Below are positions 6,085 through 63,892 of a stretch of DNA of 64,000 nt, piece after piece. The stretch's first letter is position 1, and every line of letters begins with the position of its first letter. The position numbers and the translations under genes were made by a program. Source of the DNA: Candidatus Hebobacterum abditum (GTDB lineage Bacteria > Armatimonadota > Hebobacteria > Hebobacterales > Hebobacteraceae); contig JALGXW010000015.1 of NCBI GenBank assembly GCA_029821875.1, positions 1-64,000 of the forward strand. The letters are read 5' to 3'. Below the pieces are notes generated by a model, which made no database searches, had not been told where the DNA came from, and was given only the letters and a program-made list of their open reading frames with translations.

Positions 6085-6107
6085 GGGCAGGAGGCGCGCT
6101 CCTGCCC
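6085..6107. repeat. Family A palindrome (GGGCAGGAG/CTCCTGCCC)
   Basis: A perfect 9-bp stem closes on the loop gcgcg and is followed by TACGAACTC. The segment is identical to the copy at 7397-7419, including the flank. Its right end touches the stop codon of the TPR gene. Confidence 0.85.
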
Positions 6108-7114
6108 TACGAACTCGGCTCTTCCTCCTCCAGCCCCACCAGCTCCTTGAACTCCAGGTCGGCGTGGAGGCTCTCGAAATCCTCGTCCGTCCGCGCCAGC
6201 TCGCGGAGCGTCTCATCAAGCTCAATGGCCCTCTTCAGGTCGCGCATGGCCTCGTCCCTCTGATTCAGGCCTGAGTAGGCACAGGCCCGGTTGTAGTACA
6301 GCACGTCCTCCTTGGGCTCCAGCTTGATCCCTCGAGTATAGGCCGCTACCGCCTCCTCATATCTGCCGAGCTCGTCCAGCGTCCACCCTCTGTTATGGTG
6401 CGCCTCGGGGAAGTCGGGCTGGAGGCGGATGGCGCGGTCGTATTCCACCAGCGCCCGCTCGTAGTCCTCTTCGTAGAAGTAATCATTCGCCCGCGCAAGA
6501 TATGCCTCGGGGGTCAGTGGCTGGCCCAGGTCCTCGAGGCGGTCGGCCGCTATGCTCGCCTCTTCGAGTGTCTCTCTCTCCTCACGCGAAACCTTCCCGG
6601 TCACCTCTATCTCATCAGCCGCCTCGATCTGCTTCTTCAGGGCAGCGATCTCTTCAGCGTCCGCCTTTGCACTGGCGAGGAGCTCAATGGTCTCCTGCGA
6701 CATCCCCTCAGCGCTTTTGAGCAAATCCTCTGCTTCTTTTCTGACGGCCTGTACGCCCTTCAGCTCCCGATAGCCGAAGAACCCCAGCAGGCCCCCCACA
6801 ATCGCGATCGCTAGGGTAACGAACTTGGTGCACGTGCCGATCGTCGTTATCACATCGTGCGACGACTTTGCCGCATTCTCGCCGGCCGCCGCGGCGCGGG
6901 TGGTCGCCTCTTCTATCCCATTGAGACGCCCCTCCATCCGACTCATCCGGTCCGACAGGTCGGCGGTCTGGTGCCGCAGGCGCGTGTCTGCCTCGGTCTC
7001 GTAGAGGTATACCGGTGGCGCTTCGGCGTCCGCCGCCTGCGAAGAGGCCGGGGTCGAGGCTGAACAGCAGAGGGCGATGAGACCCAGGGCGATGACGTGC
7101 CAGCATCGGATCAT
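6107..7114 (-). CDS. Membrane-anchored coiled-coil TPR protein
   Basis: This 335-residue protein has a signal-peptide-like N-terminus (1-27) and a coiled-coil-prone stretch. A transmembrane helix follows at about 98-115 (FVTLAIAIVGGLLGFFGY), then a second coiled coil at about 115-190. Three or more tetratricopeptide repeats lie at about 204-305 (A..Y..A....P...A...RG). TPR arrays bind other proteins, so an envelope scaffold role is likely, with no specific partner visible. The ATG at 7114 is preferred over 7150 because GGAGG sits eight bases before it. The last codons and the stop lie inside or next to a family A palindrome, and matching repeats occur upstream, so the gene sits between repeat clusters. 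Confidence 0.85.
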   Translation of the reverse strand: MIRCWHVIALGLIALCCSASTPASSQAADAEAPPVYLYETEADTRLRHQTADLSDRMSRMEGRLNGIEEATTRAAAAGENAAKSSHDVITTIGTCTKFVTLAIAIVGGLLGFFGYRELKGVQAVRKEAEDLLKSAEGMSQETIELLASAKADAEEIAALKKQIEAADEIEVTGKVSREERETLEEASIAADRLEDLGQPLTPEAYLARANDYFYEEDYERALVEYDRAIRLQPDFPEAHHNRGWTLDELGRYEEAVAAYTRGIKLEPKEDVLYYNRACAYSGLNQRDEAMRDLKRAIELDETLRELARTDEDFESLHADLEFKELVGLEEEEPSS

Positions 7115-7196
7115 GGCGCCAGCCTCCTGTGCGACAGAGCGAGGGCTCATGAGCGGGGATACACAGCGGAGTGCCCCCTCCGCCCAAGGGGTTCGG

Positions 7197-7219
7197 GGGC
7201 AGGAGGGACGGTCCTGCCC
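7197..7219. repeat. Family A palindrome
   Basis: GGGCAGGA and TCCTGCCC arms close on a 7-base loop. It is followed 13 bases later by a family B element, forming an A-B pair. Confidence 0.8.
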
Positions 7220-7232
7220 GTTGAGCCACTAG

Positions 7233-7256
7233 GCTTCGGCAGCACGCTACCGAAGC
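7233..7256. repeat. Family B palindrome
   Basis: GCTTCGG and CCGAAGC arms enclose an inner AGC/GCT stem, followed by AACGGAAACACCCAC. The same flank (GAAACACCC) follows the copies at 7437 and 44695. Confidence 0.8.
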
Positions 7257-7330
7257 AACGGAAACACCCACTCGCCTCCGCTTCAGCACCTCGGCCCGGC
7301 CCATCGTCAGCAAACGATAGAAGCGAGTGA

Positions 7331-7364
7331 GGGGGTCTGGGGGACTGATCGCCAGCAGTCCCCC
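7331..7364. repeat. Family C palindrome, copy 2 (inverted)
   Basis: GGGGGACTG (7339-7347) pairs with CAGTCCCCC (7356-7364). Read on the minus strand, the unit matches 5892-5925 including the AGACCCCC tail, so the two copies form an inverted pair around the TPR gene. Confidence 0.75.
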
Positions 7365-7396
7365 AGCTCGGGCGTTCTCCTTTGCCGCCGGAGAAG

Positions 7397-7419
7397 GGGC
7401 AGGAGGCGCGCTCCTGCCC
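7397..7419. repeat. Family A palindrome
   Basis: A perfect 9-bp stem with loop gcgcg, followed by TACGAACTC. It is a duplicate of the copy at 6085-6107 and pairs with the B' element 17 bases downstream. Confidence 0.85.
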
Positions 7420-7436
7420 TACGAACTCACCTCTGG

Positions 7437-7458
7437 TTTCGGGAGCGAGCTCCCGAAA
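7437..7458. repeat. Family B' palindrome (TTTCGGGAGC/GCTCCCGAAA)
   Basis: Perfect 10-bp arms are separated by two bases, followed by CACCCAC. An almost identical element lies at 44695-44716. It is 29 bases upstream of the beta-helix gene start. Confidence 0.85.
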
Positions 7459-7487
7459 CACCCACAGACCTGCCAACGGAGTCAGGC

Positions 7488-8795
7488 ATGAACCTGAGTT
7501 TCGCAACGATGACGGTCGCAGCGGTGAGCATCTTCGCGCTGTGTTCGAGCGCGGCGGCCAACGTATATAAGGTAAGCGATCTCGATAGGCTGCAAGAGCT
7601 CTGCTCGGAGACGGCCGAGCCGGGGGATGTGATCGAGATTCAGCCGGGGACCTATTACCTCGACAGATCGCACATATCGGTGACGCGCAGCGGCGAGCCG
7701 GGCAATCCGATCATCATCCGCGGCCTGGTGAAGGATGGCGAGCGGCCGGTGATCGATGCCAGCCGGGTGAACGTGAAGCGCGGCATCTTCCGCACCGAGC
7801 AGAGCACTCACGACGTGGTGTTCGAGGACCTGGAGCTGCGCAACGCCTGGGGCGCCCGCTTCCCCGACCGGCAGAGGTATGGCACCAACGCGGGCGCGAT
7901 CTACTTCCAGGGCAAGAACCTGACGGCGCGGCGGGTTCACTCCCACCACAACGAGGACGGATGGTTCGCCATCCACGATGCCGACAACATCCTCATCGAG
8001 AACTGCGAGATCGGCCACAACGGCACCCAGCACAAAGGCCGCCACAACCCGACCCACAACTTCTACTTCTGCGCGGAGAGACAGGTGGTCCGCAACTCCT
8101 ACATCCACCACTCGACCGAGGCGCAGAACTTCAAGAGCCGCGGGCACAGCACCATCCTCGCCTACAACTGGATCGAGGAGGACGCGGGCTACAGCACCGA
8201 GGTGGCCAGCGGCAATGAGGGCAACACGCTGTGGATCGGCAATGTCATCATCAAGCGCACCGAGCAGGGCCGCCGGCAGCGGCGGATTCTCGGGGTGGGC
8301 GACGGCACCGGCGTGGCGAAGGGGCGGCTCACGATGATCAACAACACCATCATCTCCACCCTGCCCAACGACCTCTATCTGTTCACCGAGAAGTCTTCGA
8401 CCTGTGACGTGGTGCTCATCAACAACGTCTTCGCCGGGCCCTCGACGCGCTTCCTCGAACACAACGGCAAGGGCCGGATCACCGGCACGAACAACTGGTT
8501 CCAGAGGGGGATGAACATGCCCGAAGGTGTCGCCGACAACATCTTCGGCGACGATCCCGGCTTCGTCGACCTGGCCGGGCACGACTTCCGGCCGCGCCGC
8601 GGGTCGGCGCTCATCGACGCGGGGCACCCCTTCCCCGAGCACCTCAACGCGGAGCAACTCCTGGAGCAGATCCTCCCCAAGTACGAGCCGTCCCGCGACC
8701 CCGACGCGAGCATCAAGCGCATCATCCAGGGCACGGTCGACATCGGGGCGTTCGAGTATGGTCCGGGCGATGCCGAGGGGATCGCAGCGCGCTGA
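7488..8795 (+). CDS. Secreted right-handed parallel beta-helix protein
   Basis: The 435-residue product has a signal peptide (1-24). Residues about 25-345 form a parallel beta-helix, with repeated strands such as NLTARRVHSHHN, NILIENCEIGHN, QVVRNSYIHHS and TMINNTIIS. The opening CSETAEPGDVIEIQPGTYYL is the usual first coil of pectate-lyase-like and chondroitinase-B-like (PL6) folds, and the tail has the GSALIDAG and DIGAFEY segments found in such proteins. It probably binds or cleaves an acidic polysaccharide outside the cell; catalytic residues could not be assigned with confidence. GGAG lies six bases before the ATG. It heads a plus-strand block of carbohydrate-related genes. Confidence 0.85.
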   Translation: MNLSFATMTVAAVSIFALCSSAAANVYKVSDLDRLQELCSETAEPGDVIEIQPGTYYLDRSHISVTRSGEPGNPIIIRGLVKDGERPVIDASRVNVKRGIFRTEQSTHDVVFEDLELRNAWGARFPDRQRYGTNAGAIYFQGKNLTARRVHSHHNEDGWFAIHDADNILIENCEIGHNGTQHKGRHNPTHNFYFCAERQVVRNSYIHHSTEAQNFKSRGHSTILAYNWIEEDAGYSTEVASGNEGNTLWIGNVIIKRTEQGRRQRRILGVGDGTGVAKGRLTMINNTIISTLPNDLYLFTEKSSTCDVVLINNVFAGPSTRFLEHNGKGRITGTNNWFQRGMNMPEGVADNIFGDDPGFVDLAGHDFRPRRGSALIDAGHPFPEHLNAEQLLEQILPKYEPSRDPDASIKRIIQGTVDIGAFEYGPGDAEGIAAR

Positions 8796-8885
8796 GCGGA
8801 TCGGACGAACCGCCCATCTGGGCGCTTCGCCCCAGCGAAATCCCACACGTGGAGGAAAGTGACTGCCGCCTTTCCGGGGAAGTGA

Positions 8886-10892: not shown

Positions 10893-10914
10893 GGCCGAGG
10901 AAGACGGCGGCGCT

Positions 10915-13356: not shown

Positions 13357-15691
13357 CCAGAGTGCCAGCCGTCCGATGTCAGGCTCATTCGAGTCCTTCG
13401 GCTCACTCGCCGACGCGCTGGAGGGGCCTCGGAGCGGCGCCTTCGGCCTCGAGCCGGAGGGCCGGCCGCGGCACGGGACGACCTACTACCGGACCGACAC
13501 GCCGTACCTGTGCTTCGATGTCTCGAACAACCAGGTGCTGTGCACGATAGCGCAGACGGGACTGCTGGAGAACGCGTGCATCTGTGAGGGCCTGATTCCC
13601 GCGGAACTCAGCAACCGGTACCTCCCCGGCATCTATGTCTACAAGGAGCTGATCGGCGGCGGGCCGTGGCCTCTCGCCATTCGCCGCGGGGAGGGCGAGG
13701 CGACGAGCTTGCATGAACTCTCCGCCGTGGGCGCGGAGCTGCTGGGCAATCTCTTCCCGCTCTTCACATACGAAAACGACGGCCTTCGGATACGTCTGCT
13801 GGTCTTCGCGCCGATGGCCGAGGACGACAGCGTCACCGTTCCCCGCGCCGTCTTCGCCGTCGTGCACATTCGCAACGAGGGCGACCGGCCGTTCGAGGGC
13901 GCTCTCATCGGCCCGGCCGATGTGTCCGATGTCGCCCGGATGAGCGAGAGCGAAGGGGGACGCTCGCCGCATGAGGCCGTTGCCTGTCTCGACGGCGGCG
14001 ATGCGTACCCCGAGATCGGCCTCGCTCTCCAGCCCGGCGAAGATGCTGTCGTGTCGCTCGCCTTCCTGCTCGGCCGCGACGCGGAGGAGCTTCGCCGCGC
14101 CGAGCGTGTGCTCCGCGAGCGGACGGCGCTGGAGTGGCTCAATGAGACATGGCGATTCCACGCCCGGCGGTTCGGACAGCTCTCGATTTCCGAGGAGCCG
14201 TTCTACGCGGAGGGCCTCCTCCGCTTCGAGGAGCTGTGCCGGCAGTCGGTCATGCGGATGGCGGACGGGAAGTTCGGCGCCGGATTCTGGGGGAGCAACT
14301 TCGTGGGCGCGTCGGCGTGGGAGAGCGCGTGCGTGTGGACAAAGGACAACTTCCACGCCATGCTGCCCATGAGCATGTTCGAGCCGCGGCTGTGTGCGGA
14401 CGCAATCCTGTTCTTCCTGCGCTGGGGACTCCCGACGGGGCCGTACGGGCAGCACGGCGGCGGCAGCGACCGCTTCGCCAACCCGAGGCGGGTGACGCAC
14501 TCGCTTACGAACGGACTCGCCCCGCTTGTGCTGGCGGGCGCCTACTACCAGATGACAGGTGACCGCGCTTTCTTCCTCGATCACCCGGAGATTCTCGACG
14601 GGGCGCACGCTCTGCTCGAAGACGTACTGCAGAGTCGGCGGGGCGAGCCGTTCCTGTTCCCGTCGATGTTCATCTCAGACGGCCCCTCGCGGGGCGAGTA
14701 TCACACCGGCTCGAACCTGCTGGTCTGGTATTCATTCCACCACATGGCGCGGATCGCCCGCGAGGTGTACGACGAACAGGGCCTCGCCGAGGCGTGGTCG
14801 GAGTCGGCGGGCAAGGTGAAGGAGGCGATCCTGCAGCACTGTGCCGGCGAGGGCCCGCAGGGGCGGCGCTTCTTCGAGGGGGCCGAGGCCGACGGCAGTT
14901 TCGTCGCCGGCCACGATGGCGAGGAGACCGACACCACGCTCATGCCCTTCTATGGCTTCTGCGAGGCCGACGATCCGGCGCTCATCGAGCACGCCCGGCT
15001 CGGGCTGTCGCCGGAGAATCCCCACTACGCGCCGGTCGTCGACGGGATCTGGTGGGAGGAGACCGGCACCACCTTCCCGGGGTGGATGACCGCTCTGGCG
15101 AGCGCCTCCAACGAAGACGAAGTGCGGGCCCGACTCGAACAGATCCGCCGCCTCACCGATCACGATGGCTCCATCTGGTGGTGGCCGTACAAGTACGGCT
15201 GCACCGACCCGACCGAGGTGCGGCGCCGGGATCCGTACTTCCAGTTCGAGGGCCGCGAGGGCCTCGAAGACCTGGGGGTGGGGAAGTGCGGCTGGGCGGC
15301 CGGTGTCTATCTCTGTCTGTTCGTGAATAACATCCTCGGGCTGCGGGTGGACGTGCCGGCGGGGCAGGTTTCTCTCCGGCCTTTCTGTCCCTGGCCCGAG
15401 TTCACGTGGGAGGGCTGCCGCCTGGGCGCTTCGCGCTTCGACTTCGCCTACGAGCGCCGTGAGGGCCGGCTCATCGGCCGCATCACCAACCGGAATGACA
15501 TCGAGTTCGAGGGAGTGATCGAACTGACGTTGCCCGACGGCGCGAGCGTGAAGGCCTGCAAGGTGAACGGCGCGGAGGGCGCGCATGTCGAACACACGGA
15601 ACGCTACGGCCGGCCGGCAGTCAGGCTCAGGCACCCCGTGCAGCCCGGCCAGACGCTGTGCCTTGAGGTCGAGTACAGGGCGAAGAAGTGA
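13346..15691 (+). CDS. Alpha/alpha-toroid glycosidase-like protein without signal peptide (paralog 2)
   Basis: This 781-residue protein has the same domain order as the previous gene but begins directly at the beta-sandwich (FESFGSLADALEGPRSGAFG), so it appears cytoplasmic. The start is the ATG at 13346, with GGAGG six bases upstream; it overlaps the previous stop codon by 11 bases, which suggests translational coupling. A longer open frame begins at 13094, but that part is a shadow of the upstream gene. It keeps a complete barrel, including WTKDN near residue 330 and TGPYGQHGGGSDRF, absent or shortened in paralog 1. A pair with one exported and one internal copy would suit stepwise breakdown of an oligosaccharide; this is inference. 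Confidence 0.75.
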   Translation: MGSDQSASRPMSGSFESFGSLADALEGPRSGAFGLEPEGRPRHGTTYYRTDTPYLCFDVSNNQVLCTIAQTGLLENACICEGLIPAELSNRYLPGIYVYKELIGGGPWPLAIRRGEGEATSLHELSAVGAELLGNLFPLFTYENDGLRIRLLVFAPMAEDDSVTVPRAVFAVVHIRNEGDRPFEGALIGPADVSDVARMSESEGGRSPHEAVACLDGGDAYPEIGLALQPGEDAVVSLAFLLGRDAEELRRAERVLRERTALEWLNETWRFHARRFGQLSISEEPFYAEGLLRFEELCRQSVMRMADGKFGAGFWGSNFVGASAWESACVWTKDNFHAMLPMSMFEPRLCADAILFFLRWGLPTGPYGQHGGGSDRFANPRRVTHSLTNGLAPLVLAGAYYQMTGDRAFFLDHPEILDGAHALLEDVLQSRRGEPFLFPSMFISDGPSRGEYHTGSNLLVWYSFHHMARIAREVYDEQGLAEAWSESAGKVKEAILQHCAGEGPQGRRFFEGAEADGSFVAGHDGEETDTTLMPFYGFCEADDPALIEHARLGLSPENPHYAPVVDGIWWEETGTTFPGWMTALASASNEDEVRARLEQIRRLTDHDGSIWWWPYKYGCTDPTEVRRRDPYFQFEGREGLEDLGVGKCGWAAGVYLCLFVNNILGLRVDVPAGQVSLRPFCPWPEFTWEGCRLGASRFDFAYERREGRLIGRITNRNDIEFEGVIELTLPDGASVKACKVNGAEGAHVEHTERYGRPAVRLRHPVQPGQTLCLEVEYRAKK

Positions 15692-15741
15692 GGAGGCCGG
15701 CGGTCGGCGCAGTCTGCTCAAGGGGCCCGAGAGAGGGCCGG

Positions 15742-17679
15742 TCACTCCGTCGTCTTCATCGCCGTCGCGGCCGGCACGAGCCTGAAGCGGACGATGACCT
15801 CGGTGCCGTCGCCGTGCACGATTTCGATGGTGCCCCCGAGTTGGTCGGTCAACCCCCTGACGAGTTGAAGACCCAGGGTCTTCGGCTCCGCCATGTCGAT
15901 ATCCTCGGGAATACCTACGCCATCGTCCCTGATTCTGAGGGAGACCATCTGGTCGGGAAGCTGGGCGAGCGTGACCTCGATCGTTCCCCCGGGCCGGCCC
16001 TCGAACGCATGGCGGTAGGCATTGCTGGTCAACTCGCTCACGATGAGGCCGCAGGGAACGGCCTGCGCGAGGCTGAGGCGAACGTTGGAGGCGGCGATGA
16101 TCAGGTGAACGTCTGTGCTTCGGCCGGCGTGGACTTCGGCCAGGTGCTCGGCCAGGTTGCGCACGTGCAGCTCCATGTCCACCAGGTCGAATCGGTCCGC
16201 ACGGTAGAGCTCGGTGTGGATGAGGCCCATGGCGAAGATCCTGTCGCGGGCATCGCGGAGCACGGCCGCCGCCTCCGCGCTGTCGGCGCGCTCACGGCTC
16301 AACTCGAGGAGGGAGGCGATGATCTGGAGGTTGTTCCTCACCCGGTGGTGGGTTTCGGCGAGGATTACGTCCTTATCGGCCAGGGCCTGCCGCAGATCCG
16401 CTTCGGCCTGTCGGCGCTCGGTGACATCGATGCCGGTCGCGATGACGTACTCGACGTCGCTGTCGGGGCCGAGCAGGGCCGTGTTCGACCAGGCTATGCG
16501 ATGGCGGGTGCCGTCCTTCGCGACCCAGTAGTTCTCGTACTCGTTGGGAAAGCTGCCGCTCTGCAGCTCACGAAAGACGGCCTGCACGGGCGCCGATTCC
16601 TCGTCGGTGAGGAGGAAGTCCCAGACGGCCCGACCCCTCGCCTCCTCGAACGTGTAGCCGGTCAGGTCCTCACAGGCGCGGTTGAAGCGGACGATTCGTC
16701 CCTCGCGGTCGAGGACCACAACCAGCGCTCCCGCGGTTGACAGCACGGCCGAGACGAAGTCGCGCTCGGCCTTCAGCGCCTGCTCGCTCTGCCTGAGATC
16801 CCGGAAGAGAAGCGAGTACGGCCTTGCGAGGCCGATCTGGAGGACTCCCAGATAGATGAAATAGAAGGAGAGGATCTTCAGGTAGTGACCGATCAGATTG
16901 AAGAGGCCGTATACGTCGGTGTAGAGGGTGAAGGCCATCTCGGCGGCCATGGTCAACAGGATCGATGCGACCAGGAGCCGCAGCACAGCCGGGTCGAAGC
17001 TGCTCCGCCTGCGGAGCAGCATGCCGACGGAGCCGAGCAGGACCAACGAGATGACGTACTCGCTGATCTTCTTGAAGGGAGTGAGGCCGGCGCCCTCCAC
17101 CAGGCAGACCGGAAAGACACCCCACAGGAAGACCGAGGCCACGATGAGGGCGAATACGCCGACGTAGGCGATGAAGGTGACGTCCCCTCTGAGCCTCCGT
17201 CCGATGAAGAGAGGCGCGATCAGGAGCGAAAGGGCCTCCACATAGCGTGCGCCGATCCAGAGTTGGGTGGCAAAGTTGCCGCCTGCCTCCGGGATCACTC
17301 CCATGCCCTTATAGGCGAGCGTATGCACGAGGTCGAGGGCGCTGACGCACAGATAGGCAACTCCGAGAAGGAGCAGGTAGGGGTTGCGGGCGAAGCGGCG
17401 CGAGTTCCAGGCGAGCATGAAGATGGCGGCGCCGACCGTGATGCTGAAGCCCTCAGCCAGCACGTGGAACAGCAGGTAGCTGTGGAAGGTCGTGAGATAG
17501 AGTCCGCCCAGCACGGCGAGGCCGATGGCGGCCGACAGAACGCGACGGCCAGTCCCGCCTGAGGGCCTCTCCGCGTCGGCCGCTTCGCCTAAGGCCGGCC
17601 CCGATGATGGTCGCGCGAAGGCGGCCTCCCCACCGCGTCCCGCGTCGTTGCGCTTCACCCTCGCCTCGCCTTGGCCCAC
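15742..17679 (-). CDS. MASE3-PAS sensor histidine kinase (HisKA_2 type)
   Basis: The 645-residue protein starts at a GTG. A membrane sensor of the MASE3 type spans about 47-270 (FSITVGAAIFMLAWNSRR, YLCVSALDLVHTLAYKGMGV). A PAS domain follows at about 315-435 (GRIVRFNRACEDLTGY). A HisKA_2 dimerisation domain carries the phospho-acceptor H in ETHHRVRNNLQIIASLL, and a HATPase_c domain spans about 540-635 (N box SELTSNAYRHAF, G box RDDGVGIP, LGLQLV). It autophosphorylates on histidine; the ligand and the response regulator are unknown, and no regulator is adjacent. The start lies 15 bases after the stop of the small Cys-rich ORF of the ars operon, so cotranscription with arsenic genes is likely. 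Confidence 0.9.
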   Translation of the reverse strand: MGQGEARVKRNDAGRGGEAAFARPSSGPALGEAADAERPSGGTGRRVLSAAIGLAVLGGLYLTTFHSYLLFHVLAEGFSITVGAAIFMLAWNSRRFARNPYLLLLGVAYLCVSALDLVHTLAYKGMGVIPEAGGNFATQLWIGARYVEALSLLIAPLFIGRRLRGDVTFIAYVGVFALIVASVFLWGVFPVCLVEGAGLTPFKKISEYVISLVLLGSVGMLLRRRSSFDPAVLRLLVASILLTMAAEMAFTLYTDVYGLFNLIGHYLKILSFYFIYLGVLQIGLARPYSLLFRDLRQSEQALKAERDFVSAVLSTAGALVVVLDREGRIVRFNRACEDLTGYTFEEARGRAVWDFLLTDEESAPVQAVFRELQSGSFPNEYENYWVAKDGTRHRIAWSNTALLGPDSDVEYVIATGIDVTERRQAEADLRQALADKDVILAETHHRVRNNLQIIASLLELSRERADSAEAAAVLRDARDRIFAMGLIHTELYRADRFDLVDMELHVRNLAEHLAEVHAGRSTDVHLIIAASNVRLSLAQAVPCGLIVSELTSNAYRHAFEGRPGGTIEVTLAQLPDQMVSLRIRDDGVGIPEDIDMAEPKTLGLQLVRGLTDQLGGTIEIVHGDGTEVIVRFRLVPAATAMKTTE

Positions 17680-22407: not shown

Positions 22408-22431
22408 GCTTCGGTAGCTTGCTGCCGAAGC
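22408..22431. repeat. Family B palindrome (minus orientation)
   Basis: GCTTCGG (22408-22414) pairs with CCGAAGC (22425-22431), with an inner AGC/GCT. On the minus strand it reads GGCAGCAAGCTACC in its centre, the same asymmetry as the copy at 7233, and it follows the family A element at 22497-22456. Confidence 0.8.
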
Positions 22432-22455: not shown

Positions 22456-22497
22456 GGGCAGAAGCCACGCCGCCGGAGGCAGCCAAGGCTTCTGCCC
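22456..22497. repeat. Family A palindrome with compensatory stem changes
   Basis: The arms here are GGGCAGAAGC (22456-22465) and GCTTCTGCCC (22488-22497). One base in each arm differs from the usual GGGCAGGAG/CTCCTGCCC, and the two changes preserve pairing. The loop is 22 bases. The flank TACGAAG matches the other copies. Confidence 0.8.
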
Positions 22498-22534
22498 TAC
22501 GAAGTGAAGCCGCTGAGGCAGGGAGCGGGGACGG

Positions 22535-23105: not shown

Positions 23106-24161
23106 CTACAGCTGCCCGTAGCTATGGGCCTCGTCATACATGGCGAGGATGTTCTCGACGGGCGTGACGGCCTGCAGCGCGTGGCAGGGCGCGAGGATGT
23201 AGCCCGTGCCGTCACTGGCGAGGGTGTCGATGGCGCGCCGCACCAGCGCCCTCACCTCCTCCGGCGTGCCGAAGGGCATGGCCTGCTGGTTGTCCATGGC
23301 GCCGTGGAAGCAAAGGCGGTCGCCGAAGTCGGCCTTGAGCCCCTCCATCTCCATGCCCGGGCAGCGCCACTGGACGGGGTTGAGAATGTCGATGCCCATC
23401 TCCACCAGGTCGGGCAGGAAGGCCCGCACCGCGCCGTCGTCGTGGTGGAAGACCCTGACGCCGAACTCGCGGCAGAGGCCGATGAAGCGCTCCATGTGCG
23501 GCCGGTAGAACTCGCGGAAGGTGTCGAGGCTGATGAGCGGGCCGGTCTGCCCGCCCAGGTCGTCGGTGACCTCCGACACGTCTATCAGGCCGTCGGCGGC
23601 CTCGAACATGCGGCAGTGATGGTGGTAGAAGAAGTCGCTGATCCGGCCCAGCAGGTGGTGGGTGAACTCCGGGTCGTCGTGTGGGTCCAGCAGCGACTGC
23701 TCCAGGCCGCGCAGCAGGTTGTGGTAGTAGAAGATCGCCATGTAGCCGCACTTGACGGCCCGCCGCTCGCGGCCGACCTGCGCGGCCTCCTTCATCTGCG
23801 AGTAGTCGAACCAGTCCGCGCTCGGCCATTGGTAGGCTTCGAGGTCGTCGATGGTCTTCGCCTGCGCGAGTGGATTGAAAGACTGCTCGTAGTAGACGCC
23901 GGTGCCGTAGTCGATGGCGCGGGTGCGAATGCCCCAGTAGTCGACGGCCTCGCCCTCGGGCATCTCGGGAAGGGGCGGGCCGATGTACTCGGGACCGGTG
24001 CCGGCGAAGCTGTCGAGGTGGAGCGCCTCCATCATGTCCACCTCCGGGCCGAAGTGATCGCTCAGCATCTTCCACACCTCAGGGGTGGCCCAGATGTCGG
24101 TGGGGATGCGGTCGAGCGGCTTGCGCTCGATGGCGGCCAGCATTCGCTCGCGGGAGTTCAC
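23106..24161 (-). CDS. Uroporphyrinogen decarboxylase-like protein (second paralog)
   Basis: The 351-residue product opens NSRERMLAAIERKPLDRIPT, the standard start of URO-D superfamily proteins. A central segment reads LISLDTFREFYRPHMERFIGLCREFG, the HHDDGAVRAFLPDLVEMGIDILNPVQ block follows, and the end reads GTGYILAPCHALQAVTPVENILAMY. HHDDG and APCHALQ are typical of members related to corrinoid methyltransferases, with possible metal-binding His and Cys. The substrate is unknown. The GTG at 24161 is chosen because it lies at the family's usual N-terminus; GGAGAG is 11 bases upstream. It is only distantly similar to the copy at 21295-22353. Confidence 0.82.
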   Translation of the reverse strand: MNSRERMLAAIERKPLDRIPTDIWATPEVWKMLSDHFGPEVDMMEALHLDSFAGTGPEYIGPPLPEMPEGEAVDYWGIRTRAIDYGTGVYYEQSFNPLAQAKTIDDLEAYQWPSADWFDYSQMKEAAQVGRERRAVKCGYMAIFYYHNLLRGLEQSLLDPHDDPEFTHHLLGRISDFFYHHHCRMFEAADGLIDVSEVTDDLGGQTGPLISLDTFREFYRPHMERFIGLCREFGVRVFHHDDGAVRAFLPDLVEMGIDILNPVQWRCPGMEMEGLKADFGDRLCFHGAMDNQQAMPFGTPEEVRALVRRAIDTLASDGTGYILAPCHALQAVTPVENILAMYDEAHSYGQL

Positions 24162-26516: not shown

Positions 26517-26556
26517 GCCGCGGACGCCGAGCCATCGAGGGGATGGGAGAGGGGGA

Positions 26557-26578
26557 CTTCGGCCACAAGCTTCCGAAG
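26557..26578. repeat. Family B palindrome
   Basis: CTTCGG and CCGAAG arms surround a 10-base centre containing AAGCTT, followed by CAACAG. It lies 32 bases upstream of the next gene. Confidence 0.7.
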
Positions 26579-26610
26579 CAACAGAGACAGCATTCCCGGA
26601 GGGGACAGCG

Positions 26611-30421: not shown

Positions 30422-32527
30422 TCAGTCGAGGTCGAACACCACCATGGCGTGGCAGTCGAGCCTGTCGATTTGCACCTTGACTTCGTCGCCCTCCTGCTGG
30501 TAGATGAGCGGGGTGTCGGTCGGCTGGAGATGCACGGCCCGCACCGGCCTGCCGACGCGGGCGGTCAGCTCGAGATGGTGGACCGGGATGATCTCCTGGA
30601 TGACGTGGCGGGTGTGGTAGAGTTCCCGTCCCACCTCCGGCTGGCAGTTGACGAGATGGACGACGAGCTGCTCCCCGTCCTCTCGCTCGAAGGCCGTCAG
30701 CTCCACCGAGGCCGGGGCCTTCAGTTCCACCTGCAGCGGCGCGGCGGAGGCATGGCGCACCGCGTCGGACAGCACGCACTTCAGCTCGGGGAAGCTCAGA
30801 TCGATATAGTCCCGGTCGATACCTCCCGCGAAGTAGACTGCCCGGCCCTTCCCGAAAGTATGGAGCGTGCAGGCCGGCCAGTCGGTCGGCACGGCCGGCG
30901 GGTTGGTCATGATGTTCACGAACCTGTCGGCCGATGGCTCCGCCAGTGGATAGACGATGCGGGCGAGGGCCTCCGCTCCCTGCAGCTCGACCTTGGCCAG
31001 CGGCCCGCGGCTGGTGATATACCCATCGGCCGGCAGGCGGCGGGCGATGGGCGCGTCCGCGTCGAAGCGGCTGTAGACTTTGGAGTACATCCCGGTGTCC
31101 GCGACATAGGAGACGCCCAGCACGTCGCGGAGCTGGTAGTCTCCGCCGGGCTCTCCCCGCTCGTTCCAGAGCGATGTCGCGCCGGTGCAGACGAGGCCGC
31201 CACCTCCGCGCACGAACTCGCGGACCGCCTCCACCTCCTCCGCGGAAAGGCAGACGGCGTTCGGGACGACCAGCACCTGATAGCCCGCGAGCGTGTCCGC
31301 GTCCAGATCCACGATGATGTCGTAGGGGATGTGCTCCTCGATGAGCGCGCGGCAGGCCCCGAAGAGGTGATTGTCATAGCGGTTCTCGCGGTCGTCCCGC
31401 CCGTACCAGACGCGCGACCGCTCCGAGTAGAGCACCGCCACCGACTTCACCGGCGTGCCCCCGAGCCACGGCTCGCATTCCCGTATCTCGCCCAGCACGC
31501 GGCCGATGCGGTCCCACATGGGCTGCTGCACCGTCCCGTCGGGGAACATGATATCGAAGAACATCACCGCGCCGCCGTTGGCGAGGGCGGTGAAGGCTTC
31601 GCTGCGCAGGTGGTCGAGGGACTTCATGTTGGGCGCGTCGGCATGGGAGCCGGGCCGGGTCATGATGCCGATCTCGGGCATCTGCCGGCTGATGGCCCGG
31701 GCGATGTTCGTGCACACGCTCATGTGCAGATAGCCGCCGCCGAAGTAGATGTCCGAGTAAAGGTAGTCGGCCTCGCGGCCCAGCGCGACGGTCTGCCCGC
31801 TGATCGCGCCCCCGCGGAGGACCTGGTGCTGCACCCCGAGCGAGATGTCTGGGTTCGCCTGCTTGGCGGCGCGGCAGATGTCGCGGACGAAGAGGTGGTT
31901 GGTGTCGAGCCGGAACTGGACGAAGCTGCGGTACAGCGGATCCTCCCAGTCCTCCTCCTGCGGAGGCGGCGCGCCGTGGCGGTCGCGGAACAGCCGCGTG
32001 CAGCTCTCACAGTGGCAGGGGTTGGAGTGGAAGAAGGTCATGTCGAGGAAGATGCCGTCGATGTCGTGTGTCTCGATGAGCCTGGTCAGCATGGCGATGA
32101 GGTGGTCTTTGTAGGGGCTGTTGAGGCAGAGGATCTTCCCCCAGCTCCCTTCGTCCGCCGCCACCGGTCGCCCCTCCGCGTCCACCTGCCGCCACTCCGC
32201 GTGCTCGTCGTACAGCTTCTTGTCATAGACGGTGGAGAAGTAGGCGGCGACCAGCTTGCCCTGCGCGTGGAAGTGGTCGAGAAAGGCGCGCAGCTGGTCA
32301 ACTCCCTTCAGACCGCGGTGCATGCCCTCCCAGCCGACATCGCAGAACCAGTGTCCGTTGTGCGTCCGCGCGGTCGAGTAGATCACATCCGCGTCGAGCG
32401 CCTCTACGTGCCGGAGGAAGTCCGAGATATTGTAGCGCTCGAAGATTCGCGGGTCCCAGTCTTCGTAATGCTGGCTGGTGTAGAAACGGCGGTAACACTT
32501 CGCGATTCTCTGTGCTTGCTCGGACAT
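30422..32527 (-). CDS. Glycosidase-like protein with beta-galactosidase-trimerisation-like domain
   Basis: The 701-residue product has a TIM-barrel-like N-terminal half (about 1-360), with IYSTARTHNGHWF, GIFLDMTFFHSNPCHCESC and ALANGGAVMFFDIMFPDG. A Rossmann-like middle domain follows (about 375-560: VAVLYSERSRVWYG, YQVLVVPNAVCLSAEEVEAV, FVRGGGGLVCTG), and a beta-sandwich tail ends it. The order is that of GH42/alpha-fucosidase-like enzymes with a beta-galactosidase trimerisation domain. The catalytic residues cannot be named from sequence alone. No signal peptide is visible, so it is probably intracellular. The start at 32527 has GGAG about 10 bases upstream. The cupin gene lies 96 bases upstream on the same strand and may be cotranscribed. 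Confidence 0.7.
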   Translation of the reverse strand: MSEQAQRIAKCYRRFYTSQHYEDWDPRIFERYNISDFLRHVEALDADVIYSTARTHNGHWFCDVGWEGMHRGLKGVDQLRAFLDHFHAQGKLVAAYFSTVYDKKLYDEHAEWRQVDAEGRPVAADEGSWGKILCLNSPYKDHLIAMLTRLIETHDIDGIFLDMTFFHSNPCHCESCTRLFRDRHGAPPPQEEDWEDPLYRSFVQFRLDTNHLFVRDICRAAKQANPDISLGVQHQVLRGGAISGQTVALGREADYLYSDIYFGGGYLHMSVCTNIARAISRQMPEIGIMTRPGSHADAPNMKSLDHLRSEAFTALANGGAVMFFDIMFPDGTVQQPMWDRIGRVLGEIRECEPWLGGTPVKSVAVLYSERSRVWYGRDDRENRYDNHLFGACRALIEEHIPYDIIVDLDADTLAGYQVLVVPNAVCLSAEEVEAVREFVRGGGGLVCTGATSLWNERGEPGGDYQLRDVLGVSYVADTGMYSKVYSRFDADAPIARRLPADGYITSRGPLAKVELQGAEALARIVYPLAEPSADRFVNIMTNPPAVPTDWPACTLHTFGKGRAVYFAGGIDRDYIDLSFPELKCVLSDAVRHASAAPLQVELKAPASVELTAFEREDGEQLVVHLVNCQPEVGRELYHTRHVIQEIIPVHHLELTARVGRPVRAVHLQPTDTPLIYQQEGDEVKVQIDRLDCHAMVVFDLD

Positions 32528-37377: not shown

Positions 37378-37394
37378 GCTCGGTTCAGTTCGTA

Positions 37395-37417
37395 GGGCAG
37401 GAGCGCGCCTCCTGCCC
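37395..37417. repeat. Family A palindrome (opposite orientation)
   Basis: A perfect 9-bp stem with loop cgcgc, preceded by GTTCGTA, which is the reverse complement of the flank after the copies at 6085 and 7397. It occupies most of the gap between two same-strand genes. Confidence 0.85.
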
Positions 37418-44631: not shown

Positions 44632-44659
44632 CGGGGCAGGAGCTACAGCTCCTGCCCCG
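44632..44659. repeat. Family A palindrome, perfect 13-bp stem
   Basis: CGGGGCAGGAGCT and AGCTCCTGCCCCG are separated by only two bases, so the whole element is nearly a perfect palindrome. It is followed 35 bases later by a family B' element, as in the pair at 7397-7458. Confidence 0.85.
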
Positions 44660-44694
44660 CGTGTGGCCTTCAGTAGGATAGCTGACTCGCGGTG

Positions 44695-44716
44695 TTTCGG
44701 GAGCAAGCTCCCGAAA
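44695..44716. repeat. Family B' palindrome (TTTCGGGAGC/GCTCCCGAAA)
   Basis: Perfect 10-bp arms with a two-base centre, then CACCCCAC. It matches the element at 7437-7458 apart from one centre base. Confidence 0.85.
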
Positions 44717-44754
44717 CACCCCACTCACACGACACACTCATGCTGCGAGGCTGC

Positions 44755-46065: not shown

Positions 46066-46137
46066 GACGAGGGGAACGAGAGTCCATACGGCAGGACATC
46101 CGTGTCCTCTCCCGCGATGCCTGGGAGCCTGTTCGTT

Positions 46138-46160
46138 GGACAGGAGCTTGCCTCCTGCCC
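46138..46160. repeat. Family A palindrome
   Basis: CAGGAG and CTCCTG arms form the core of a GGACAGGAG/CTCCTGCCCC stem with one mismatch, loop cttgc. It is in the gap between convergent genes. Confidence 0.7.
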
Positions 46161-49852: not shown

Positions 49853-50034
49853 CGTGACTCCCAGTCGCCGCCTGTCGCTGCACACTCCGTCCGGCGCTTT
49901 CCCACAGACACGATGCTGGCCCGCGATGGCCAACTCGTGAACGAGATGACGCGAAGATGTGAAGGTAAGGGGGGATGTCCGGTTTCGGCACAGGCCCTGA
50001 CACCCGCGCCCCTGCTTCGCGAGCGCTGTTCGTT

Positions 50035-50057
50035 GGGCAGGAGCTTGCCTCCTGCCC
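50035..50057. repeat. Family A palindrome
   Basis: A perfect 9-bp GGGCAGGAG/CTCCTGCCC stem with loop cttgc. It lies upstream of the methyltransferase start; a longer open frame reads through it, but the encoded peptide (GQELASCPC) is repeat-derived. Confidence 0.85.
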
Positions 50058-59656: not shown

Positions 59657-59779
59657 GCCGGCGGGCATTCGCCTCTCTCCTTCGCTGAAGCTTCGGAGAA
59701 CAGGTCGGCGTATACCCGCCCTGGAGTGACGGGAGGCAAGTCGCCGGGCCCGTGCCGCTCCGGTGCGAGGAGGGGAGCT

Positions 59780-60035: not shown

Positions 60036-60043
60036 AGGTCAGT

Positions 60044-60913
60044 CTACTGGTACAGTGTTCCGGTGTTGAGCACCGGCTGCGCGGCCGACTCGCTGCAGAG
60101 CACCACCAACAGGTTGGAGACCATGGCCGCCTTGCGCTCCTCGTCCAGGCTGAGCCTCTGGACTTCCTCCAACCTGTCCAACGCCATCTCCACCATCCCC
60201 ACCGCGCCCTCCACGATCCGCTGCCGGGCGGCGATGATGGCGGCCGCCTGCTGACGACGGAGCATCGCGCCTGCGATCTCGGGCGCATAGGCCAGATGGG
60301 AGAGACGCGCCTCCATCACCTCTACTCCGGCCCGGCCCAGTCGCTCCTGGAGCTCGGCCTGGAGACTGCTGGAGACCTCGTCCACATTGCGGCGCAGCGA
60401 GGTCGTGTTCTCGTCTGCATCGTACGGGTACGCTGACGCAAGATGCCGCACCGCTGTCTCGCTCTGCGTGGCCACGTAGTCCACGTAGTCGTCGACCTCG
60501 AAGCTCGCGGCGAAGGTATCCCGCACCCGCCACACCACGATGGCGGCGATCTCGACGGGATTCCCCGTCAGATCGTTGACCTTCAACTGCTCGCCGTTCA
60601 GCGTGCGCGCCCGCAGCGAGACGGCGCGCCTCGTGTTGAACGGATTCACCCACTGAAAGCCGCTGCGCTTGACCGTGCCTTTGTAGCTCCCGAAGAGAAG
60701 CAGCACCCGGCTCCGGTTCGGCTCAACGATCATGAGCCCAATCGGGATCAGCACGGCGACGAGGCCCAGCACCACGACGGGGACAATCTTGCCCGCGGTT
60801 GGCTCCCCGGTCGCCAGCTGATAGACCGGGAGCGCGAGGAGCCCGGCCACGACGACCTCGACCAGCAGCATCAGCCACCCCGACACAGCTTTGACTTCCA
60901 CTTCTCGCGTCAT
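60044..60913 (-). CDS. SPFH-domain (stomatin/prohibitin/flotillin-like) membrane protein
   Basis: The 289-residue product has two hydrophobic helices in its first 65 residues. An SPFH domain spans about 75-245 ([65 protein letters not shown]), followed by a coiled-coil-rich C-terminus ([24 protein letters not shown]). SPFH proteins form large ring or cage assemblies at the membrane and affect stress resistance. GAGGAG is nine bases upstream of the ATG. The promoter carries a phased operator at 60928-60955. Confidence 0.93.
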
Positions 60914-60927
60914 GTGTGGTCGCTCCT

Positions 60928-60955
60928 CATATCTTTAGGATATCAATATGATATC
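60928..60955 (-). promoter_or_regulatory. Phased operator upstream of the SPFH gene
   Basis: Three hexamers follow each other at exact 11-base spacing: CATATC (60928), GATATC (60939) and GATATC (60950). The last two with their AATAT spacer form a 17-base inverted repeat. This AT-rich block stands alone in GC-rich DNA directly upstream of the SPFH gene, so it is probably a repressor site. Confidence 0.65.
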
Positions 60956-61021
60956 ACACGGGAGCCCACCTGTCAAGGTCGCTTTTGTTCGGGAGGAGGA
61001 CATCCTGGGGCATGCCAAAAG

Positions 61022-61095
61022 GGGCAGGAGGCAAGTGGCTAGGCCGTCGGAGGCGGCCGCCATCCCGGGCCCTGAGGGCCCAGGGACTCCTGCCC
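61022..61095. repeat. Family A element with long insert
   Basis: GGGCAGGAG (61022-61030) and CTCCTGCCC (61087-61095) are the usual arms but lie 56 bases apart. The insert ends with its own palindrome GGGCCCTGAGGGCCC (61067-61081). Confidence 0.65.
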
Positions 61096-61160
61096 AACGG
61101 GAACGACGCGATGCCCGTTCGGCTCCGCTCGGGGCAGGCCTTCGCTACGCTGAGGGAGTA

Positions 61161-61183
61161 GGGCAGGAGCGTGTCTCCTGCCC
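61161..61183. repeat. Family A palindrome
   Basis: A perfect 9-bp stem with loop cgtgt. It lies ten bases from the stop codon of the NIF3-like gene. Confidence 0.85.
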
Positions 61184-61192
61184 AGTCCCCGT

Positions 61193-62041
61193 CTACAGGT
61201 CCTCCATCACGGGAACGTCGTCGAGGAACTCCGCCTCGAGTCCGAGTTCCTGGAAGTAGAGGCACATGGCGAGGCAGGCGAACTTCTCGGTCGAGTAGTG
61301 CGTGCCGCCGAGCAGCGAGAGGCCGAGTCCGGCCGCCAGATCGTGGGCCGGGCGAGAGACGTCGTTCAGTACTGTGATGCCGGTGAGATAGGCATTGAGT
61401 CCCCTGTCGGCCACGCACTGGATCACCTCGGGCTCATTGCCGCCTCCGGCCACCACCGCGACGAGCCCGTCGCGGATCGCCGCCTCGCCATATGGATACA
61501 TGCTGGTTCTGTGGCCCAACACCTCGGAGAACCGCGCCGACAGCTCGGCCACCGTCTTGACGGACGTCTTGCAGATGACACCTGGCTTCACTCCGCAGTA
61601 CTCGAAGTCCAGGTCCTCGGCGACCTCAAGCCCGAGGGCCGAGGCGAGCGTCACCGAGGTGGAGTAGGGGCCGTTGCGGTCGAGCGGGACATGGAGGACA
61701 TAGACGGCAATCCGGCGGCGGCGCAGCATCTCCATATCATCTGACGAGATCGCGCCGAATACGGTTGGCGCGAGCCGGATGTCCCACGTCATCGCATGAT
61801 GGGTCAGGAGGAGAGCATCGGACGCGTCCGCCGCGTAGAGCTTCTCCAGCACCGGAGGCGACGGGAACACGGCCGTGTAGACCCGATTGATCTCCCTCGC
61901 GTTGTCGAGGAAGACTCCCATGAACCGCTCGTGGAACTGGGGGGCGACGAAACGCGCCTCGCCGTAGTCCTCCCACTCGTCGCGGCATTCCGAGAGACGG
62001 AAGTCGGCATCCAGTTTCCGATAGAGGTCTTCGCTGTTCAT
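61193..62041 (-). CDS. NIF3/YbgI-like dinuclear metal protein
   Basis: The 282-residue product follows the NIF3 family: LLLTHHAMTWDIR carries the first His pair and GGTHYSTEKFACLAM the last metal-binding segment (His and Glu), with VVAGGGNEPEVIQCVADRG as the conserved middle. NIF3 proteins form hexamers around two metal ions; some are GTP cyclohydrolase-like or phosphohydrolase-like, but most are uncharacterised. The ATG has no strong ribosome-binding site. The upstream gap contains degenerate pieces of families A and B. Confidence 0.88.
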   Translation of the reverse strand: MNSEDLYRKLDADFRLSECRDEWEDYGEARFVAPQFHERFMGVFLDNAREINRVYTAVFPSPPVLEKLYAADASDALLLTHHAMTWDIRLAPTVFGAISSDDMEMLRRRRIAVYVLHVPLDRNGPYSTSVTLASALGLEVAEDLDFEYCGVKPGVICKTSVKTVAELSARFSEVLGHRTSMYPYGEAAIRDGLVAVVAGGGNEPEVIQCVADRGLNAYLTGITVLNDVSRPAHDLAAGLGLSLLGGTHYSTEKFACLAMCLYFQELGLEAEFLDDVPVMEDL

Positions 62042-62119
62042 TGGCCAGCCGGCGTGTGTGCGTCGGCCGGGAGTGCATCTCCTGCCCTACGGCCTAGCGA
62101 AGCAACGCGGGAAAGCGTA

Positions 62120-62803
62120 TCACTCGCTGCTCGACGGGCCCTCCTTCGGCTTCAGCGTGGCGAAGTCGTTGCTGATGACTGGCTCCGCGCCGCTGTCAGA
62201 TACGTCGCTCCAGAAGTAGACGCCCACCACTCCACCCCTAGCCGCGAAGCCGACGTCCACGTTCGAGAGATCCTCCGCGGCCCCCTCCTCCCGGAGCAGC
62301 GCGAGGAAGAGCTTCTCCGGCGGCAGGCCCTGCCCCGGCGGGCCGGCTCCGGGGACGAGTGCAGCCACCTCACTCGCCGCTTCGATCCAGCTGTCGAGCG
62401 CGGTCTTCTGGGGGGGCGGCAGCGACGGGACGAAGAGGCGGACCTCGCGATGAGCACGGAACTCCTCCACCTCCTCGTCGGTCAGCGCGCCGAACAGCTC
62501 GAACGCTCGAGGCCACAATACCTCCAGCACGGCCGTCACGAAGGCCTCCATCTCCGGGCCCGTCTGGCGCATCCGCTCCAGCTCATCGGTAGGCAGGAAC
62601 CCGAGCACCTCGACCGCGCGCAGGAACTCCTCGGACGGTTCCTCCGGGGCCCACTCGGGCAGGGCGGCCTCGCAGGACTCCTCGGCCGTCTGTTCTTCTT
62701 CTGCCTGTTCCTCCGCCGCGAGGACAGCGGGCGTGCCGCAGATCACCGATACAACCAGAGCCAGAGCCAACGCGCAAGAGAAGAGCAACTGGGTGGAGGA
62801 CAT
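62120..62803 (-). CDS. Secreted acidic protein of unknown function
   Basis: The 227-residue product has a signal peptide (about 1-30, FSCALALALVVSVICGTPAVLA). A glutamate-rich linker (AEEQAEEEQTAEESCEAALP) follows, then a helix-rich domain (VEVLGFLPTDELERMRQTGP, LFGALTDEEVEEFRAH) and a beta-rich end. I know no family. The longer frame to 62866 begins inside a repeat remnant and is not used. Confidence 0.7.
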   Translation of the reverse strand: MSSTQLLFSCALALALVVSVICGTPAVLAAEEQAEEEQTAEESCEAALPEWAPEEPSEEFLRAVEVLGFLPTDELERMRQTGPEMEAFVTAVLEVLWPRAFELFGALTDEEVEEFRAHREVRLFVPSLPPPQKTALDSWIEAASEVAALVPGAGPPGQGLPPEKLFLALLREEGAAEDLSNVDVGFAARGGVVGVYFWSDVSDSGAEPVISNDFATLKPKEGPSSSE

Positions 62804-63018
62804 GTGCTTCACTTCCCCCTTCCTTTGGCTGCGGCGATTCGCCGGGCAGGTGCTTGCATCCTGCACCAGTCATTGTGCGTTCCCGTTGGACGGGAGCCTT
62901 GGCCGCCTCGGGCGGCGTGCTTCCTGCCCCTTCTCCAGATGAGGGGTGGCGAGCGGCCGTGCTCCACACCTCTCTCAAGCCGCTCGCCCTTCCTTCGACT
63001 GTCGCGCGAGGGCGCGAC
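62804..63018. other. Intergenic region with degenerate family A pieces
   Basis: There are GGGCAGGTGCTTGCATCCTGC near 62844-62864 and TTCCTGCCCC near 62920-62930, which look like decayed family A arms. I see no gene here. Confidence 0.4.
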
Positions 63019-63111
63019 CTACTTGGCTTTGCGTTCGCTCTTCGCCTTAGCAGGCTTCTTCGCAGTGTGCTTCCTCTTCGAGTCTCTGCATCCGCACCCG
63101 CAACGTGCCAT
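63019..63111 (-). CDS. Cys/Lys-rich microprotein (30 residues)
   Basis: A 31-codon frame begins with an ATG eight bases after GGAGG, a strong ribosome-binding site that overlaps the stop codon region of the ECF sigma gene. The product is MARCGCGCRDSKRKHTAKKP followed by AKAKSERKAK: three cysteines as C-x-C-x-C, then a lysine- and alanine-rich tail with 14 basic residues overall. It starts 5 bases after the sigma stop codon, so it is cotranscribed. It could bind metal and nucleic acid or act as a small anti-sigma-like factor; nothing is known. Confidence 0.6.
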   Translation of the reverse strand: MARCGCGCRDSKRKHTAKKPAKAKSERKAK

Positions 63112-63116
63112 TCGTC

Positions 63117-63755
63117 TCACCTCCCTTCCGTCAGAGTATCGGCGCAGACGCAGCCCGGGCTGCCGCACCGTGTCATAATCTGCTCGACCATCTCCTCCGA
63201 GGAAATCTGCAGGGACAGCAGTTCCCTCACCACCGGCAGGAGCTTCCGCTTCGCCTGTTCGCGGCCCTCGCGGAGGCGGCTCTTGACGGTCGTCGGCGAC
63301 AGGCCGAGAGTCGCAGCGATTTCCTCCTCCGTGCAGCCGGCCAGGTAGTGGAGGCCCAACGCCCCGCGGCTCTTCGGCGACACTTCAGCCAACATATCGT
63401 TGACGATATTGCCCAGTTCCGATTGCCTGAACCGAGCCGCCGAGTCCGGGTCCGCCGGCTCAGGGAGGGTCTCCAGTGGCACTGGCGCGGCCCGCTGGCG
63501 GCGAAGCCACATTCGGCACACGTTCCTCGCCACACGGCGCAGCCAGGGCAGGAACTTGTCCGGGTCCCGTAGGTCCGCCAAGTCGCGGTAGACCCGGACG
63601 AAGACCTCTTGGGTCAGGTCTTGGGCCTCGGCCGCCTGTCCCACCTGGCTCAGGCAGATCGCGTACACCAGGCCGCGGTAGCGGGCCACCAGCGCACTGA
63701 ATGCTGACGCATCGCCTTCGACGGCCCTCTGGACCAGTGTCGTGAGATCTGTCAT
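63117..63755 (-). CDS. ECF sigma factor with C-terminal Cys cluster
   Basis: The 212-residue product has region 2 at about 15-80 (FSALVARYRGLVYAICLSQV, DLTQEVFVRVYRDLADL) and region 4 at about 125-175 (ALGLHYLAGCTEEEIAATLG, then LSPTTVKSRLREGREQ). The last 20 residues, TRCGSPGCVCADTLTEGR, carry three cysteines that could bind a metal or sense redox. GAGGAG lies five bases before the ATG. The microprotein gene follows directly. Confidence 0.92.
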   Translation of the reverse strand: MTDLTTLVQRAVEGDASAFSALVARYRGLVYAICLSQVGQAAEAQDLTQEVFVRVYRDLADLRDPDKFLPWLRRVARNVCRMWLRRQRAAPVPLETLPEPADPDSAARFRQSELGNIVNDMLAEVSPKSRGALGLHYLAGCTEEEIAATLGLSPTTVKSRLREGREQAKRKLLPVVRELLSLQISSEEMVEQIMTRCGSPGCVCADTLTEGR

Positions 63756-63862
63756 CAGTGCTCCTCATCTACCTGGGTGCGCGGCGCGCCCGAAAAGTTG
63801 GGTGACACAGCCCAGAATTTCGGCGCGGAGGGAGACATATCTGCCCCGGCCTCGAACATCTT

Positions 63863-63892
63863 GTTGCTTCGGTAGCTTGCTGGCAAAGCAAC
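63863..63892. repeat. Family B element, partly degenerate
   Basis: GTTGCTTCGGTAGC on the left faces GCTGGCAAAGCAAC on the right. The outer arms GTTGCTT and AAGCAAC pair, but the inner CCG has become GGC. Confidence 0.65.

Follow-up and report, generated by a model that had tools for sequence, protein, structure and literature searches.

Interspersed palindromes in an Armatimonadota genome as probable repeats of two separate REP/RAYT systems

The stretch of DNA analysed here (the window) comprises the first 64,000 nucleotides of contig JALGXW010000015.1 from Candidatus Hebobacterum abditum, and carries short palindromes of two families, A and B, between genes or at gene ends. Candidatus Hebobacteria are assigned to Armatimonadota by NCBI. 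The palindromes are probably repetitive extragenic palindromic (REP) elements of two systems, each with its own REP-associated tyrosine transposase (RAYT).

Palindromes in the window and in the genome

The palindromes in the window were located by a motif search and a hairpin scan. Family A is represented by six copies with exact arms, of which those at 6085-6110 and 7397-7422 (minus strand) and at 37392-37417 and 61158-61183 (plus strand) have the foot GTAG, the copy at 50032-50057 (plus strand) has GTTG, and the copy at 44634-44657 has a GT foot on neither side. Three further copies are degenerate: 7197-7219 (minus strand) has one arm mismatch and no GT foot, 46135-46160 (plus strand) has one arm mismatch and a GTTG foot, and 22456-22500 (minus strand, foot GTAG) has a long loop with an inner hairpin, both of its arms having changed together (GGGCAGAAG / CTTCTGCCC). 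Two spellings had been predicted for family B; both exist, and they represent two subfamilies, B1 and B2. B1 is found at 7233-7260 (minus strand, foot GTTG), at 22408-22431 (plus strand, degenerate GCAG-type foot) and in degenerate form at 26556-26583 (minus strand, GTTG foot) and 63862-63889 (plus strand, GTTG on both sides), while B2, without an assigned strand, is found at 7436-7459 and, with 13-bp arms, at 44691-44720. The predicted number of six B elements holds, four matching the consensus exactly (counted at 7235, 7438, 22410 and 44696) and two with two mismatches (26558 and 63868). For family A at least ten had been expected; six exact (6085, 7397, 37395, 44634, 50035 and 61161) and three degenerate copies (7197, 46138 and 22456) were confirmed, while the candidate tenth at 62065 is doubtful, with two mismatches and E 0.92 in a covariance-model scan of the window.

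The palindromes are not confined to the window. The assembly of the same organism (G000; 4,312,816 bases, about 4.31 Mb, in 103 contigs, to which C numbers refer) contains 47 exact A palindromes and 20 B palindromes with at most one mismatch, and the reversed patterns used as a control gave 0 in both cases. A covariance-model scan of this genome returned 81 A matches, but these include both-strand hits of single palindromes, which inflate the number as is visible in the window, and we therefore used the 47 exact copies as the count. Genes were called with our own codon-usage caller in 30 stretches totalling 379,400 bases (81% coding), and an element was counted as inside a gene if it overlapped a called gene by at least 10 bases. 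The stretches were picked for holding elements, so the resulting percentages are approximate: 46 of 47 A and 19 of 20 B lie outside called genes, while random 23-mers overlap genes in 81% of cases. The single A and single B exceptions are neighbours at C4:8342-8414. Family A is thus almost exclusively intergenic, and neither of the outcomes named beforehand as damaging, a genome scan that finds only the window copies or copies equally frequent inside genes, was observed. Within the window A and B lie outside the gene calls, the A at 6085 overlapping a stop codon at 6107 by one base. Gene 6107-7114 (minus strand) ends, as called, in the TAG of this copy's foot, and the same arrangement, in which a gene runs into an A, occurs in 4 of the 47 copies (window 6107-6109, C37:188013, C92:75805 and C99:36865). 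Tagged, intergenic and multi-copy A are also present in relatives, identical arms being found next to unrelated genes and also in other genera; exact copies number 50 in G002 (same family), 16 in G006, 15 in G008, 1 in G007 and 0 in G005.

All 47 A copies were inspected with their flanks, and the loop alone (cNNgN) was enough to orient 41 of them. Their 5′ foot is GTAG in 24, GTTG in 12, GTGG in 3 and another sequence in 2, so that GT[ATG]G occupies this foot in 39 of 41 copies, while the opposite foot has it in 5 of 41 only. The foot given for REPs in the available text of PMC6006769, and likewise of PMC3686654, is GT[AG]G; most of the 41 A conform to it (GTAG 24 and GTGG 3), with a GTTG subfamily besides. 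B1 feet are mostly GTTG, and we class B as a GTTG-tagged variant with a REP-like layout rather than as a strict REP member. The conserved A unit consists of foot plus hairpin, and its flanks are unconserved save for a frequent C immediately 5′ of the foot. Two conserved flanks proposed in the original prediction dissolve on this view of the anatomy: TACGAA beside A is the reverse complement of TTCGTA, a frequent variant of the 5′ foot GT[AT]G, and GAAACACCC after B is partly the B2 arm itself and starts five bases off the B1 at 7233-7256.

Foot and loop are linked in the 32 A copies that have a five-base loop and a GT foot, as T at loop position 2 accompanies GTTG in 9 of 9 cases and the other loops do so in 2 of 23 (p=2e-6). 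The link is weaker in the 74 such copies among 100 pooled from all loci, other organisms included, where T-loops have 21 T, 8 A and 3 G, and G-loops 3 T, 35 A and 1 G. Some A copies contain an inner hairpin in the loop, as at 22456-22497, where both arms co-changed; other long-loop copies lie at C59:52297, C87:31079, C92:74349 and C92:75764, and B1-like copies in G002 (L217) have extra loop sequence. The short form looks as if it were the long form minus the inner hairpin.

A and B repeats cluster together. For seven of the 20 B the nearest exact A is at most 100 bp away, while a within-stretch intergenic null, preferred as stricter than a uniform intergenic null (0.29 expected), gives an expectation of 1.1 and reached seven or more in 0 of 5,000 shuffles. 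The ten neighbour pairs within 150 bp comprise eight A-B (seven of them within 100 bp), one A-A and one direct B1-B1 pair, a pattern other than the regular inverted doublets of one REP that define bacterial interspersed mosaic elements (BIMEs) or REP doublets (REPINs). The four A-B pairs predicted in the window are present, but the supposed conservation of order and orientation does not hold, because in seven exact and two degenerate pairs A stands either before or after B and the feet differ in direction. This variation, together with a comparison with G002, rules out a fixed A-B unit: near gene 7488 the aligned G002 sequence contains an A that shares the loop and the TTCGTAG foot and differs in one arm base, and it lacks a counterpart of the B2 at 7436-7459. 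We rejected this B2 as a clean insertion, as about 13 unrelated bases take its place in G002. A clean difference was found at C87:118017, where B1 is missing from the congener G001 between conserved flanks, a G001 B1 lying elsewhere in the gap. A rearrangement breakpoint adjoins REPs where homology to contig 76 of G003 ends at window 22401, just short of the B1 at 22408; the homology picks up again at 23116, where the final 25 bases are nearly repeated. As the region is rearranged it was not called an empty site. We infer that the A-B pairs arose by independent insertions, which tend to fall close to repeats already present, the direction of change being unpolarised.

Two RAYT genes and the repeats that frame them

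A distant REP-type transposase had been proposed for these elements, and a RAYT gene is indeed present in the same genome. The Pfam PF01797 search of this genome gave one gene, matched at C37:188094-188378. This gene, RAYT-A (C37:188055-188537, outside the window), encodes a 161-residue product that scores 126.6 bits against the NCBIfam RAYT model NF047646 (cut-off 80) and 25.6 bits against the IS200 model (cut-off 55). It is framed by inverted A palindromes, at C37:188013 (plus), 188558 (minus) and 188678 (plus, foot GCAG). The RAYT-A protein used as a query identified a second gene through a match at C99:30436-30870 on the minus strand (E 4.8e-12, 30% identity). This gene, RAYT-B (C99:30418-30897, minus strand, outside the window), is framed by inverted copies of its own cognate repeat, with B1 at C99:30333 and 30377 (plus) and at 30910 (minus). 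The closest solved structure is 4er8, TnpArep, for both proteins (E 1.3e-10 for RAYT-A and 0.0015 for RAYT-B), and when aligned to it both have the HUH motif (MPDHYH / MPEHFH) and the tyrosine of the Y...N motif (YLHDN). RAYT-B belongs to a divergent RAYT-like clade.

Relatives of RAYT-B with 49-61% identity occur in eight genomes from five other families among 291 genomes of the phylum. We inspected 12 loci of this clade (our own, ten others and a split G004 relative) and counted B-like palindromes at seven of them, on both sides in four (our own, G231, G238 and the second G229 gene) and on one side in the remainder (G229, G032 and the second G246 gene); a single imperfect B-like hairpin at L232 was left uncounted. 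The B1 arms in G231 are identical to ours, in G238 both arms have changed (GCTTCGGTATC with GATGCCGAAGC), and the hairpins at G032 and at the second G229 gene are B2-like (TTTCGGG). B1 and B2 therefore both occur with the RAYT-B lineage, although B2 is not exclusive to it, since two A-type RAYTs of G003 have B2 palindromes next to them as well. The hairpins that frame the RAYTs of G001, G003 and G004 vary between genes and match across each gene, while the RAYTs of G005 and G007, where exact A are 0 and 1, belong to another clade on the tree. G003, a 3 Mb assembly, has eight RAYT-A-like matches, several framed by their own palindromes.

As RAYT-A is framed by inverted A and RAYT-B by inverted B, and homologues likewise, the arrangement points to two REP/RAYT systems and not to one BIME unit. 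The BIME/REP likeness drawn in the original prediction stands as far as REP-type elements are concerned, while A-B is no fixed BIME unit and B represents a second system with its own RAYT.

Weighing the interpretation

We put the probability that this Armatimonadota genome contains two separate REP/RAYT systems, with the palindromes as their REP-type elements, at about 0.88. The observations behind this are the anatomy, the intergenic placement, the inverted cognate repeats, the HUH and tyrosine motifs, the B-like repeats at RAYT-B homologues, the one presence/absence of B1 and the link between contact residue and foot described below. Each element would consist of a hairpin preceded by a tetranucleotide guide on its 5′ side, with RAYT-A paired with family A (mostly GTAG) and RAYT-B with family B (mostly GTTG). 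By analogy with the known family, the RAYT would recognise tag and hairpin in single-stranded DNA, cut by its tyrosine, rejoin, and so spread the repeats in trans as single strands.

Several findings weigh against this interpretation. RAYT searches gave no match in G002, G006 and G008, which carry exact A in number; loss or assembly gaps may explain this. RAYT-B scores 55.4 bits (E 5.9e-15) against NF047646, below its cut-off, and 5 of the 12 RAYT-B-clade loci have no counted B-like palindrome. The 47 exact A fall short of the more than 100 copies that the abstract of PMC2817692 gives as usual for REPs. Of five intergenic sites compared with G001 four were unclean, C87:118017 being the only clean one, and the frequencies of CT, CA and GA beside GTAG- and GTTG-footed A revealed no conserved cutting site.

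It is unlikely that the palindromes are instead selected transcription terminators or stabilisers of mRNA ends whose likeness to RAYT-flanking repeats is secondary. They are GC-rich hairpins outside genes, often near gene ends, and 7 of 47 A lie between convergent genes (16% of the 44 intergenic copies with both neighbours, compared with approximately 10% of random intergenic positions), but 29 lie between tandem and 8 between divergent genes, the same arms recur at unrelated genes and in other genera, the foot is asymmetric, and matched inverted copies stand across RAYT genes. A terminator scan of window positions 5000-8500 placed no terminator-like site on a palindrome, and an Rfam scan of the window gave 0 matches. 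A role at mRNA ends, the other function suggested beforehand, is thus unsupported as the main one, while a secondary effect on mRNA could still exist.

RAYT-like genes share a superfamily with IS200/IS605, have hairpins on both sides and number eight RAYT-A-like matches in G003, which would fit active insertion sequences with the palindromes as their ends or as miniature inverted-repeat transposable elements. We consider this very unlikely given the RAYT-A scores on the RAYT and IS200 models, the presence of one gene per repeat family in the organism itself, the absence of anything conserved around A past foot and hairpin, and the 31-61% identity to RAYT-A of the G003 genes, which are hence not fresh copies. 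Two-sided operator sites of a DNA-binding regulator would also be inverted repeats near some gene starts, as the 8 of 47 divergent A are, but a one-sided foot linked to the loop, hairpin arms that co-change (22456; G238) and the association with RAYTs make such sites scarcely credible.

The two proposed REP/RAYT systems resemble the Proteobacterial REPtrons (REP/RAYT or TnpAREP systems) as described in the available text of PMC2817692, PMC3686654, PMC6006769 and PMC8266576, with which they share a 5′ tag plus palindrome, intergenic placement, inverted cognate repeats on either side of the RAYT gene, a single RAYT for each family and several families per genome. They differ in that the host belongs to Armatimonadota, many A and most B have GTTG in place of the GT[A/G]G of these papers, the Gln and Arg contacts are missing from RAYT-B, and A and B repeats cluster together. 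REPINs and BIMEs, according to the portion of PMC3116915 available, are likewise non-autonomous repeats thought to be mobilised by a RAYT in trans, but REPINs are inverted doublets of one REP, whereas here we find single foot-plus-hairpin units and many A-B pairs in unfixed order. GTAG-tagged stem-loops are known from several phyla, Proteobacteria, Cyanobacteria, Chloroflexi and the PVC group being named in the text seen of PMC3733652; "Armatimonad" has 0 occurrences in its main text, and a literature search of open-licence PMC articles gave nothing joining REP with Armatimonad terms. IS200/IS605 elements, as described in part of PMC8266576, likewise combine a Y1 HUH enzyme with hairpins that carry 5′ guides, but RAYT-A is below the IS200 cut-off and is not multi-copy in its genome. 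Our interpretation would place REP/RAYT systems in Armatimonadota, with two in one genome and their repeats clustered together.

Guide contacts, feet and neighbouring repeats

The rules by which a RAYT selects its REP and its cutting site are understood only in part. PMC6006769, in the text available, names residues W94, Q95 and R104, and PMC8266576 lists Q95, D100 and R104 among several contacts to GTAG. We transferred these positions through the 4er8 alignment. RAYT-A retains W-Q...R, while the RAYT-B clade has WKE or FKE, with Lys in place of Gln and the remaining motif lost, and two G003 genes have WS and WA, with Ser or Ala in place of Gln and the remaining motif kept.

To compare residue and foot we used 30 hand-picked RAYTs in the tree, counting the 25 with a readable foot and leaving out 5. 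Feet were read by eye (for G005 from one flank), GTAG on either side was scored as GTAG where flanks disagreed (G003:C24, G003:C71 and G288), and our own RAYT-B was scored GTTG though two of its three copies have CTTG. In one flank survey of 26 loci 10 had no partnered palindrome, and L265, L271 and L272 were excluded as having no usable foot. RAYTs without the guide-contact Gln pair with GTT-type feet (9 of 9), while those with it mostly pair with GTAG (15 of 16; Fisher p=5e-6, relatedness ignored), and this link is new. The exception is G003:C27, which has Gln with GTTC, and caution is called for by our own RAYT-A, which has Gln, yet GTTG is the foot in 12 of 41 A. Support is 100/99 both for the RAYT-B clade (11 rows) and for the Ser/Ala pair, and as these are separate on the tree, there were at least two joint changes of residue and foot.

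In the known family, a changed contact residue would be expected to alter guide reading. We regard it as evenly balanced whether these are guide-switched pairs, in which the contact residue changed along with a switch of the repeat guide from GTAG to GTT-type; the lineages concerned number at least two, namely the RAYT-B clade (Lys, neighbouring motif lost) and the G003 gene pair (Ser or Ala). The published complementarity model predicts that a T3-G4 guide selects CA, not CT, and on that reading the enzymes would be single-strand transposases retargeted in nature. GTTG feet show no enrichment of CA beside them compared with GTAG feet (upstream 0.25 vs 0.43, downstream 0.54 vs 0.48), so the flanks do not support the prediction. 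According to the available text of PMC8266576, a GTTG foot was tested as a mutant and abolished cutting by the Stenotrophomonas TnpAREP, and a guide change moved the cutting site in the Marinomonas system, not in those of E. coli or Stenotrophomonas. The main texts of PMC3733652, PMC6006769, PMC3686654 and PMC2817692 contain no mention of GTTG. Natural GTTG-guide pairs with altered contact residues could be ready test material for guide rules.

Other repeats occur near the A copies. A third palindrome, CTGGGGGACTG with CAGTCCCCCAG or close forms, is present in four copies in the 379 kb read (window 5890-5919 and 7337-7366; C22:3838 and C22:49927), every one within about 200 bp of an A, and its surroundings match many places in relatives. 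A GCCGGTAGGCCCCCGACGGCTTCCGCCCGAGAGTGTACTCTCGGGC-like palindromic repeat at C99:5727-5780 and C99:9994-10045 is common to G001 and adjoins two A copies. The 5′ end (C99:16209-16386) of gene 15281-16405 (minus strand) has dozens of matches in three relatives at 80-91% identity, which probably reflect a gene family with a conserved N-terminus.

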